Shown piece by piece: positions 9,696 through 13,812 of a stretch of 35,111 nt of DNA (its first letter is position 1; the number at the start of each line of letters is the position of its first letter). The stretch lies in IMG/VR virus record IMGVR_UViG_3300032236_001771, positions 100,077 through 135,187 of that record. One strand, written 5' to 3'. The translations under genes and the position numbers were made by a program. Origin of the DNA: a virus. The notes under the pieces are model-generated. The model did no database searches. It was not told where the DNA came from and saw nothing but the letters and a program-made list of their open reading frames with translations.

Positions 9696-10370
9696 ATGGC
9701 AAGAATACAATCATTTATTGATAATGTTATAGGAAAGGGATTTTCTATTAATAATGAATTTATGCTTTCTTTTGACACTCCAAAAGATAAATTACTTGCA
9801 GTATTTAATAATTTTGGAGTGGGTGCAAAGTTATTTGCTCCAGAAACAAATGATATGACTGTAAATGTTGGAACAACTGCAGGGGGAAAAATTCAAGTTT
9901 TATGTGAAGAAATAAATTTACCTGGAGTTACTTCTTCAACTAATGTAGCTAGAGGAATTTATCAAGGTGTTGATTTTAAATATGCTCATACTAAAACATA
10001 TAATGATTTGAATATGGTATTTTTACTAGATGTTGATTTACTTCCGTTAAGATTTTTCCAAACATGGTTTAATTTTATTTACGAAGGAAGCGATAGTACT
10101 GGCAAATCTAAATCACAAACATATACCACAAAATATTATGATGATTATACTTTAAATATGTATATTCAAAAATTTGAAAAAATTCCAGATAAAATTAATA
10201 AAGATTTACCAACTTATAATGGAGTATATCAATTAATTAATGCTTATCCATTAACAATATCTTCTATTCCTCTTAATAGTGGTGCATCTGCTCTTACTAG
10301 AGTATCAGTAACTATGGCTTATGAAAGATGGATATTTAAACATCCACCAAATAATAATTACAGTCAATAA
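9696..10370 (+). CDS. Tail-tube family protein (gp19/gp54-like)
   Basis: A 224-residue protein of the T4 tail tube fold. Pattern elements of gp19-like proteins are visible: the GGKIQVLCEEINLPGVT segment (about 64-80), RGIYQGVDFKYAH, a hydrophobic strand NDLNMVFLLDVDLLPLRFFQ leading to WFNFIYEG, and a final AYERWIFKH. It is longer than T4 gp19 (163 aa). It lies with baseplate genes, not with the gp18 sheath, so gp54 (tube initiator) or a second tube-like protein is more likely than the main tube. The N terminus MARIQSFI is preceded by a late-type box. Confidence 0.65.
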   Translation: MARIQSFIDNVIGKGFSINNEFMLSFDTPKDKLLAVFNNFGVGAKLFAPETNDMTVNVGTTAGGKIQVLCEEINLPGVTSSTNVARGIYQGVDFKYAHTKTYNDLNMVFLLDVDLLPLRFFQTWFNFIYEGSDSTGKSKSQTYTTKYYDDYTLNMYIQKFEKIPDKINKDLPTYNGVYQLINAYPLTISSIPLNSGASALTRVSVTMAYERWIFKHPPNNNYSQ

Positions 10371-10400: not shown

Positions 10401-11096
10401 ATGCCTTTACCAAAACCACCGGTTCAACTTTATGAGTTGAATTTGCCTTCAACTGGGAAAAAAATTGTTTACAGACCTTTTTTAACAAAAGAAGAAAAAA
10501 TTCTTTTGATTGCTCTTGAAAGTCAAGATGAAAAACAAATCTTGCTTGCTATTAAACAGACATTAAAGAATTGTATTCAAACAAAAATTAAAATTGAAGA
10601 CTTATCTGTATTTGATGTAGAGTATCTTTTTCTTAATACTAGAGCTAGGTCTATTGGAGAAGTTATTGAATTAAAACTTACTTGTCCTGATGATGGTGAA
10701 ACCCAAATTGAAACTACAATTAATATTGATGATATTAAAGTGCAAAAAAGTAAAGATCATTCTCCTACAATCAAATTAAGTGATGATCTTATCATCACGA
10801 TGAAATATCCAAATATTGATTCTTTAGTTGATACAAATACAGATAAAGATGCGATTGAAGCAGTAGCAAAATGCATTTCTCAAATTGCTACTAATGATGA
10901 AGTTTATGATAGTTCTCAATTTACTGTTAAAGAGGCTGTTGAGTACATTGAACAATTACCAGTAAAACAATTTGAGAAAATTCAAAAATTCTTTACCTCA
11001 ATTCCAAAATTAAGTCATACTGTTAAAGTAAAAAATCCAAATACTGGTGTAACTAGTGATGTAGTAATTGAGGGTTTATACAATTTTTTCGGATAA
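10401..11096 (+). CDS. 26: gp26-like baseplate hub / tape-measure chaperone
   Basis: The product (231 residues from the ATG at 10401; an in-frame TTG at 10395 adds two residues) matches the T4_baseplate family (gp26). Hallmarks are YELNLPSTGKK at residues 10-20, RPFLTKEEKILLIALESQDE (about 24-43) and, near the C terminus, VKEAVEYIEQLPVKQFEKI. The function in T4 is hub assembly. In position and size it corresponds to the gpG-type tape-measure chaperones of other tailed phages. It ends two codons after a T TTT TTC slippery sequence, and a -1 frame continues past its stop (see the extension entry). Confidence 0.85.
   Translation: MPLPKPPVQLYELNLPSTGKKIVYRPFLTKEEKILLIALESQDEKQILLAIKQTLKNCIQTKIKIEDLSVFDVEYLFLNTRARSIGEVIELKLTCPDDGETQIETTINIDDIKVQKSKDHSPTIKLSDDLIITMKYPNIDSLVDTNTDKDAIEAVAKCISQIATNDEVYDSSQFTVKEAVEYIEQLPVKQFEKIQKFFTSIPKLSHTVKVKNPNTGVTSDVVIEGLYNFFG
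11084..11090 (+). promoter_or_regulatory. Candidate -1 ribosomal frameshift site (T TTT TTC)
   Basis: In the gp26 frame the codons are TTT TTC followed by GGA TAA. Slipping back by one base re-pairs both Phe codons as TTT TTT, a perfect X-XXY-YYZ heptamer. The -1 frame opens at 11072, just 12 bases before this site, and stays open to 11278. Confidence 0.75.
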
Positions 11097-11278
11097 GTCT
11101 TTTTCATAATAATTTGGAGGAGTATTTTAGGGTAACATTCTCTTTGATGCAACATCATAAATACTCTTTGGAGGATATTGGAAATCTTGTTCCGTGGGAG
11201 CGAGAGATATATATTGGTCTCTTAATTCAGTATCTTGAAGAAGAAAAGAAAAAACGAGAACAAGAACAAAATAGTTAA
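11090..11278 (+). CDS. Frameshift extension of gp26 (GT-like domain)
   Basis: After slipping at 11084-11090 translation would continue for 62 codons (11090-11275) to TAA at 11276-11278, giving a 292-residue fusion. The segment after Met (ATG at 11147) reads QHHKYSLEDIGNLVPWEREI and then a helix ending in Lys/Glu repeats. This is the compact helical kind of tail that follows tape-measure chaperones (lambda T, P2 E'). Independent initiation at ATG 11147 (43 aa) is the alternative. The only strong Shine-Dalgarno, GGAGGAG at 11116-11122, is about 24 bases away from it, too far for normal use. The stop overlaps the start of the next gene (TAATG). Confidence 0.7.
   Translation, partial: RISLFHNNLEEYFRVTFSLMQHHKYSLEDIGNLVPWEREIYIGLLIQYLEEEKKKREQEQNS
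11156..11163 (+). promoter_or_regulatory. Possible late-type box inside the gp26 extension
   Basis: CATAAATA fits the late-box pattern but lies in coding sequence (His-Lys-Tyr codons), 114 bases before the next ATG. It may be chance. Confidence 0.3.
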
Positions 11279-13812
11279 TGGAAAAGAACCAAAATGAAGT
11301 AGAATCAGAAATTGGTTCTTCTTCTGCCGAAACCACAAAACCAGAACAAAGAAAAAATCCTCTTGGTGCTATAAGAAAGGAAACTTTAGCCATCAAGAGG
11401 GTAGTTAAAAAGTGGCCGGAATTTGACATATCAAAACTTGAAGCAAAATTAGAAAAAGACAGAGAGAGTTTTTCTAAATTATCAGTTAGAGTTAGTAAGC
11501 AAGAAGATAAAGATACTGGTGATGGATTAGAACTTCCTAAAATTGAAGAAAAAATTAAAGAAGAAATTAGAGAAAAAGAAGAAGTAAAGGAAGAAGAAAA
11601 GTTAAAAGAAAAACCAATTGAAGAAAAATCTCCTATTGATAGAGTAAGAGAAATCAAACCTGATTTAAAAGAACTAAAAGAAGGTCCAAAATTTGAAGCT
11701 CCAGAAATACCAAAAACAAAAGTTCCTCCACAATTAGAAGGAATAGATAGATTTAAAATTGAATTTCCAGAATCAATAAAAACAACTCTTAAAGGTGTTG
11801 ATAAAGCAGCTGGTTCTGCTGTTAAAGGTTTAGGAAAAACTCTTACCAATGTAAGTCGTGTTTTTGCTGGACTTGAATTAGCGCAAGATATTTTTGTAAA
11901 GCATGATGCAAGAGGAGCAACAAAACATGCTTTACAATGGGGTGCAGCAGAAGCAGCCGCTGGATTAGATATTGTGGGGTCTGTGGTTGGAGCCCCAGAA
12001 ACGCTTGGAGGAAGTTTAGCTGGATTAGCTGCTGCTGGTGCTGTTGGAACTGGAGCTTATGTAGGAACTGGTGCTTTATTTAATAGATTATTTCCAGAAA
12101 AAAAACCAAAAATGGCCATGGGTGGGATAGTAACCAAACCCACTATGGCTATTATTGGTGAAGGTGGAGAAAAAGAATATATTGTTCCTGAAAGTAAATT
12201 ATCTGGTTTTATTCAATCACATTCTAAAGATGATTTTAAAAAACCAGCAAGAATTATTCTTGGTGTAACACATAATTTTATATCACAATTTGGTAAAGGT
12301 TCTGATGATATTACCAGAATGGTTGGACCAGAAATTTTAAGATTAGAAAGAATTTATGGTGCAGATACTTTTACAATACCAGTATTTGCAAAAGGAGAAA
12401 ATAATTTTGATAATATAATTCCAAGTGGATTATTTGATTTTCTTCGTGGTGGAGAAGTGAAATCTGGAATATCTTCAGAATTAGTTGATTCTATTGATAA
12501 TTTAATGAGTTCTTTAGATTCTTTTTTAAGTGATGTTGAGAAAATTAGTGATGGCGGTGGTGGAGATAATGCAGGTGGGGGTGGTGATGGTGGAGGTGTT
12601 ATTACCTCATCAAGCAAAGGTGATGTAAATGATAATGAAATTTATTCTTATTTAACTAAAGAAAAAAAATTAGATGATGCTCATGCAAAAGGAATTTTAG
12701 CTAATATTTCTAGGGAAAGTGGATTTAGAGTTGGTATAATAGGTGATAATGGTAGTTCCGGTGGATTATTTCAATGGCATAATGATAGATTCACATTAAT
12801 GAGAAAAAATGTTCCAAATTGGAAAACTAATTGGAAAGGACAAGTTGATTATGCTTTATTAGAAGATTATGGCCCAAAATATATTAAAAATTCTTATTCT
12901 AGTGCTAAACAGGCATCAGATGATTGGTTAATAAAATGGGAACGACCTGCAGATGTTTTTGGTGATATAAAAATAAATGATTCATATTTAGAAAGTACTG
13001 GAAATAAAATAACAAAATCAGAATCATCAACAACACTAGCATCAACACCTCCTAGTACATTAACTCCTATGGGAGAAACCACTAAAGGATTGATTAGTGG
13101 ATATGAAGTAACTCAAGAATGGCATAAGAAAAATAATCGGGATAAAGGTGGACATCCGGGAGTTGATATTGGAACAAATGTTGGAACTTCAATAGCATTA
13201 CAGGTTGAATCACAAGTTATTGCTCTTGATGCAAATGCTGGCAATCCAAGTGGATATGGTAAATATCTTTCAGTGTGGGTTCCAAGTTTAAATAAACAAT
13301 TTTTATTTGGACATTTATCCGCAATTGGTGTCAAAGAAGGTCAAACAATTCCAGCCGGAACAGTTATGGCAAAAACCGGACAGACTGGAAATGTAACAGG
13401 ACCACATTTACATTTTGAAGTGCATTCTGAAAAATATTATGAAGGAAGTGCAAAAAATGAAAACCCAGCACCATTTTGGAAAAATTTAATCCTTGGTAAA
13501 GGCGGTTCTTTTACTGCAACGTCTACTACAAGTTCTGATGATATTTCTTCAGATAAATTATCTCCAAAAAGTTCTAACGCAATAATGTCTAGAGCAACAA
13601 AAGCAAGAAGTGTATTAAGATATCAAAGTATAGATACTGCACCATTTTATGGAAGAAGACAAACCTTTATTGTTAAACCAATAATATTTCAATCACCACC
13701 AGCACCATCTCCATCTCCTCAAACTCAACCTCAAAATAATAAACCAAAACCTAAATCAAAACCAACAGCTCAAGGATTTTCCCCATTAGTAACTCCCCAA
13801 CAATTAGATTAA
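11278..13812 (+). CDS. Tape-measure-like hub protein with tail-lysozyme and M23 peptidase domains
   Basis: An 844-residue modular protein. Residues 1-160 are highly charged with Lys/Glu repeats, likely coiled or extended. Residues about 160-275 are Ala/Gly-rich and hydrophobic. A tape-measure-type motif GGIVTKPTMAIIGEGGEKEY lies at about 282-301. A Gly/Asp spacer follows near 425-440. Then comes a phage tail lysozyme-like domain (about 450-565; IYSYLTKEKKLDD, ILANISRESGF, SSGGLFQWH). An M23 zinc endopeptidase domain follows (about 604-735; GHPGVDIG and GPHLHFEV supply the H-x3-D and H-x-H zinc ligands). The C-terminal 100 residues are Ser/Pro-rich. It starts in the stop codon of the gp26 extension. 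It probably rides in the tail and cuts both glycan and peptide bonds on entry; the tape-measure role is inferred. Confidence 0.85.
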   Translation: MEKNQNEVESEIGSSSAETTKPEQRKNPLGAIRKETLAIKRVVKKWPEFDISKLEAKLEKDRESFSKLSVRVSKQEDKDTGDGLELPKIEEKIKEEIREKEEVKEEEKLKEKPIEEKSPIDRVREIKPDLKELKEGPKFEAPEIPKTKVPPQLEGIDRFKIEFPESIKTTLKGVDKAAGSAVKGLGKTLTNVSRVFAGLELAQDIFVKHDARGATKHALQWGAAEAAAGLDIVGSVVGAPETLGGSLAGLAAAGAVGTGAYVGTGALFNRLFPEKKPKMAMGGIVTKPTMAIIGEGGEKEYIVPESKLSGFIQSHSKDDFKKPARIILGVTHNFISQFGKGSDDITRMVGPEILRLERIYGADTFTIPVFAKGENNFDNIIPSGLFDFLRGGEVKSGISSELVDSIDNLMSSLDSFLSDVEKISDGGGGDNAGGGGDGGGVITSSSKGDVNDNEIYSYLTKEKKLDDAHAKGILANISRESGFRVGIIGDNGSSGGLFQWHNDRFTLMRKNVPNWKTNWKGQVDYALLEDYGPKYIKNSYSSAKQASDDWLIKWERPADVFGDIKINDSYLESTGNKITKSESSTTLASTPPSTLTPMGETTKGLISGYEVTQEWHKKNNRDKGGHPGVDIGTNVGTSIALQVESQVIALDANAGNPSGYGKYLSVWVPSLNKQFLFGHLSAIGVKEGQTIPAGTVMAKTGQTGNVTGPHLHFEVHSEKYYEGSAKNENPAPFWKNLILGKGGSFTATSTTSSDDISSDKLSPKSSNAIMSRATKARSVLRYQSIDTAPFYGRRQTFIVKPIIFQSPPAPSPSPQTQPQNNKPKPKSKPTAQGFSPLVTPQQLD

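Follow-up and report, generated by a model that had tools for sequence, protein, structure and literature searches.

The window analysed here, a stretch of 35,111 nt with a GC content of 31%, covers the final 35 kb of the 135-kb record of an ocean phage, a T4-like cyanophage. On its plus strand, a tail tube protein gene (9696-10370; PF23849 Phage_TTP_2, E 3.6e-25) lies upstream of gp26 (10401-11096). The 231-aa product of gp26, read in the 0 frame and a candidate TAC-N, matches the T4_baseplate family PF12322 over the full length of the profile (positions 4-218 of 219, E 1.9e-66) as well as phrog_150 (E 1.2e-73), and is clearly homologous to T4 gp26. The gene ends with TTT TTC GGA TAA and so carries the heptamer T TTT TTC (11084-11090, plus strand) in X XXY YYZ register, two codons before its stop codon TAA (11094-11096, plus strand). 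Starting at 11072, the -1 frame contains no stop until a TAA at 11276-11278. The proposed shift would bypass the gp26 stop and append a TAC-C or 'gp51' domain of 62 aa (11090-11278, plus strand), giving a predicted fusion of 230 + 62 = 292 aa. This extension matches phrog_634, annotated 'baseplate hub assembly catalyst', i.e. gp51 (E 9e-28, profile positions 53-117 of 121). On the same strand, the slip site is preceded by a Shine-Dalgarno-like GAGGG (11070-11074), with a 9-nt spacer, and followed by a hairpin (11095-11127; arms 11095-11106 and 11115-11127, -6.6 kcal/mol), both being putative stimulators.

The next gene (11278-13812, plus strand, 844 aa) starts with an ATG that shares one base, 11278, with the stop codon of the extension (TAATG). 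Domain and PHROG similarity suggest a tape-measure-like protein: it contains phage tail lysozyme and M23 peptidase domains (PF18013, PF01551) and matches several tape-measure PHROGs, with phrog_34082 and phrog_12798 matching outside the enzyme domains. It also carries a GGIVTKPTMAIIGEGGE motif, a type known from tape measure proteins. The resulting gene order is tail tube, gp26, extension, tape-measure-like gene. A 240-aa open frame on the minus strand (11127-11849), antisense to the extension and to the start of the tape-measure-like gene, is probably spurious.

The original prediction proposed a -1 frameshift at T TTT TTC, yielding a 292-residue product in a lambda G/GT-type layout with a tape-measure-like gene downstream. 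The positions and frames on which it was built, including the overlap with the next ATG, were exact on recheck, and the predicted product length, the domain content of the downstream gene, the predicted short/long pair and the gene order all agree with it.

Conservation of the slip site and of the shifted frame

In the 8544 codon positions of the window, T TTT TTN occurs in frame seven times and X XXY YYZ heptamers 74 times. Since the heptamer is common at 31% GC, a single sequence provides only moderate evidence, and this abundance favours the view that the heptamer and the adjacent open frame both arose by chance, or that the extension is a decayed gp51 pseudogene. The 3' end of gp26 was compared across 101 non-redundant loci (less than 92% identity over 300 nt), and the heptamer, the frame and the extension proved conserved among relatives, a point that the original prediction had proposed to check. 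T TTT TTN was found in register in 96 of the 101 loci, its last base being C in 66, T in 15, A in 13 and G in 2. The exceptions comprise four Ackermannviridae loci and a single contig whose gp26 is broken (L116), interrupted by a frame error that is either a sequencing error or real; outside these, all 96 intact loci carry the motif. They come from cyanophages, pelagiphage and Methylophilales phages, Aeromonas phages PX29 and Aeh1, Citrobacter phage Ci1, Vibrio phage K571, Pseudomonas phage pf16, and Sinorhizobium, Rhizobium, Stenotrophomonas and Desulfovibrio phages.

The conservation extends to synonymous positions. All 96 loci use TTT for the first Phe, although TTC makes up 27% of Phe codons elsewhere, and the codon before it invariably ends in T (70% elsewhere), with p values of 1e-12 and 6e-15, respectively, uncorrected for phylogeny. 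When the second codon encodes Leu, as in 15 loci, it is always TTA or TTG, so that the slip bases stay T. On the other hand, the two Phe residues of the heptamer are also conserved at the protein level and, therefore, its conservation is partly due to coding.

Selection on the extension was assessed from approximately the fifth to the twentieth codon after the slip, a region located entirely 3' of the gp26 stop. There, the -1 frame has a pN/pS of 0.31, compared with 1.44 and 0.97 for the other frames. None of the 76 loci has a stop in the -1 frame of this region, whereas the other frames are interrupted in 39 and 74 of them. These values indicate purifying selection on the peptide that the -1 frame encodes beyond the gp26 stop. 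One locus (L045) has a single in-frame stop within an otherwise normal extension, either a sequencing error or real. Selection confined to the shifted frame, together with a heptamer kept in 96 of 96 loci, refutes a chance heptamer or a gp51 pseudogene, to which we attach practically no weight. An assembly artefact was likewise rejected, as many independent records and contigs agree.

A conserved peptide could also be made as a separate small gp51, with no frameshift involved, if translation started at ATG 11146 or TTG 11114 or were coupled to termination of gp26. Most cyanophage records annotate it in this way. Where such records list the extension, it stands as its own gene of about 45-60 codons; others leave it unannotated. 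The feature names shown in 60 sampled records indicate no frameshift product. Yet the peptide is conserved and under purifying selection upstream of any start. The first 19 codons of the extension contain no ATG, GTG or TTG, and hence no usable start, in 30 of 95 loci, and an ATG associated with a Shine-Dalgarno-like sequence is present in only 7 of the 95. Near the beginning of the extension in the window, TTG 11114 and ATG 11146 are the only possible starts, and neither has a well-placed Shine-Dalgarno sequence, in line with the original prediction. An independent small gene was rejected because no start codon or ribosome-binding site is conserved. In Vibrio K571, Stenotrophomonas Ps15 and Rhizobium N34 (L088, L098 and L099), an ATG does overlap the gp26 stop, which speaks for separate synthesis, but these phages also keep the heptamer; they may make both the fusion and a free C-terminal domain. 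A contig scan with the Vibrio K571 gp26 as query returned no matches. Moreover, a separate gp51 would leave the in-register heptamer, the Shine-Dalgarno-like element and the hairpin unexplained. Overall, we regard separate synthesis as unlikely and favour -1 frameshifting. Extensions of the frameshift type have relatives in 541 records.

The four exceptional Ackermannviridae, VP-1, phiA8-29, 1.244.A and Det7 (L095, L097, L100 and L101), possess gp26 and a -1 extension but no T TTT TTN. In VP-1 and 1.244.A, an ATG overlaps the gp26 stop (TAATG). Det7 and phiA8-29 have neither this overlap nor the heptamer.

Putative stimulatory elements around the slip site

A GAGG/AGGG-type sequence is found at positions -14 to -10 relative to the slip site, and codon choice there is biased. 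At the codon involved, the GAG:GAA ratio is 44:20 versus 330:899 elsewhere, a sixfold preference (p 1e-11), and at the next Gly codon GGA/GGG are enriched over GGT/GGC (p 2e-10). Escherichia coli dnaX has a Shine-Dalgarno stimulator, which the GAGG-type element upstream of the gp26 slip site resembles.

Downstream of the heptamer, sliding-window folding of 76 loci revealed a local excess of predicted RNA structure, with mean z of -1.6 to -2.4 for segments whose first base lies 0 to +12 nt from the slip start. An intermediate value of -1.0 was obtained at +16, and elsewhere the mean z is about +0.3 to -0.5. Measured from the same point, the peak spans only about +0 to +58. Hairpins of 9 to 13 bp, in two registers, are present in two subclades. 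In one of them, compensatory changes exceed those in 499 of 500 shuffles, a modest support given that both sides changed in just two cells; in the larger subclade, hairpin covariation was no higher than in shuffles. The idea of one hairpin shared by every locus was rejected, since alifold on 87 aligned loci gave no consensus; the hairpin is lineage-specific, and it is absent or different in several lineages. That of the window, at the energy given above, is weak, more so than in most cyanophages.

These flanking signals also bear on the idea that RNA polymerase slips on the six-T run and inserts a base, thereby changing the frame during RNA synthesis. All the loci do have such a run, but six T is short for transcriptional slippage and the last base of the heptamer is free. 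Furthermore, slippage of the polymerase needs neither codon register, nor a Shine-Dalgarno-like element at fixed spacing, nor a hairpin right after the slip site. It seems very improbable, even more so than a separate gp51, and ribosomal frameshifting remains the preferred reading.

Relation to T4 gp51 and to known tail assembly chaperones

T4 gp26, with 208 aa, belongs to PF12322, and the same family matches residues 1-201 of the 249-residue T4 gp51. The profile of the extension, in turn, aligns with T4 gp51 residues 200-246 (hhalign probability 94, E 1.8e-7), and this alignment begins at the residue of the frameshift junction. As judged from these alignments, T4 gp51 is the in-frame equivalent of the fusion, composed of a gp26-like domain and the extension. 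T4 would, hence, carry the short and the long forms as two genes. In T4, genes 26 and 51 are separate, divergently oriented and full-length, whereas the window has one gene with a -1 extension. T4 gp26 needs no frameshift since gene 51 encodes a complete gp26 paralogue that already carries the extension in frame, which accounts for the remark in the original prediction that T4 gp26 is not usually described as frameshifted. Relatives of T4 gp51 occur in about 1,340 records.

T4 gp26 and gp51 are described in PMC3004832 as hub assembly chaperones, with gp51 given as an essential protein whose function is unknown and which the particle does not contain. According to a 2010 genome comparison (PMC3037559), cyanophage and marine vibriophage gp51 is devoid of the first ~200 residues, and Aeromonas phage Aeh1 is said to lack gp51. 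Both observations agree with the frameshift reading. The ~200 residues 'missing' from the cyanophage and vibriophage proteins are gp26 itself. In Aeh1 (L126), T TTT TTN occupies the same slip register, and the -1 frame extends gp26 by a domain that matches phrog_634 (E 2e-14); this domain, which the record calls a hypothetical protein, is its gp51.

On the frameshift reading, the locus shares several features with lambda G/GT and P2 E/E+E': a short protein with a rare -1-shifted C-terminal extension, a slip site that precedes the stop by a few codons, and a TAC gene placed between those for the tail tube and the tape measure. The slip site of the P2 tail chaperone is also poly-T. Unlike these systems, the gp26 locus combines T TTT TTN with a Shine-Dalgarno-like element and a lineage-specific hairpin; gp26 is longer (231 aa), and the likeness noted here lies in organisation, not in sequence. 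The model of gp26 (pLDDT 88) had as its highest-probability Foldseek match in the PDB the HK97 TAC gp13 (2ob9; probability 0.77, rmsd 2.9, 61 columns, E 1.1), which is only a hint of a common fold. This likeness was not seen with the T4-type gp51 model, and sequence searches for homologues of solved structure found none that was convincing.

A 2022 study of T4-like chaperones by Vladimirov et al., to judge by its title, proposed a mechanism other than frameshifting. As cited in PMC10885494 and PMC12846349, this work identified the T4-like TAC genes, TAC-N and TAC-NC (Vladimirov, Gautam & Davidson 2022, Virology 566:9-15). In PMC12846349 it is the reference given for poly-T slip signals within the TAC-N genes of T4-like phages, and PMC10885494 reports from it separate short and long genes in some T4-like phages. 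In Vandenendeviridae and Andersonviridae (PMC12846349), TAC genes similarly have a conserved -1 frame, a poly-T slip site at the 3' end of TAC-N and an extension misannotated as a separate gene, though these are other phage families and their motif is GTTTTT instead of T TTT TTN. The principle is therefore known and the gp26 locus is a member: the link between gp26 and the tail chaperone system put forward in the original prediction is supported, but, going by these citations, not new. In the literature searched, which comprised sources other than Vladimirov et al. 2022, no description of a cyanophage gp26 frameshift was found. Relative to that study, as represented by its title and citations, the present analysis contributes the breadth of conservation, the putative stimulators, and an explanation for the 'truncated' gp51 of cyanophages and for Aeh1.

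Collectively, the slip site, the frame, the conserved coding extension, the conserved flanking signals and the homology to T4 gp51, all read from sequence, lead us to consider, with a probability of about 0.9, that gp26 and gp26-51 constitute a tail assembly chaperone pair, TAC-N/TAC-NC, produced by -1 frameshifting. We infer from them that slippage occurs, at some rate, and that gp26 and the fusion act as chaperones. Most ribosomes would terminate at TAA 11094 and release free gp26, while some would shift back one base on U UUU UUC to make the 292-aa gp26-gp51 fusion. Slippage could be aided by pairing of 16S rRNA with the GAGGG, which lies about 9 nt before the site; in many relatives the hairpin just 3' of the site could add to this. 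By analogy with lambda G/GT, many copies of gp26 would coat the tape measure protein, and a few copies of the fusion would recruit tail tube subunits via their C-terminal domain.

Among T4-like phages beyond the close relatives of T4, frameshifting with the full set of signals could be general and probably ancestral, with T4 gene 51 a derived, in-frame duplication; we hold the chances of this scenario to be evenly balanced. If it is true, the published 'mechanism other than frameshifting' would be confined to one branch.
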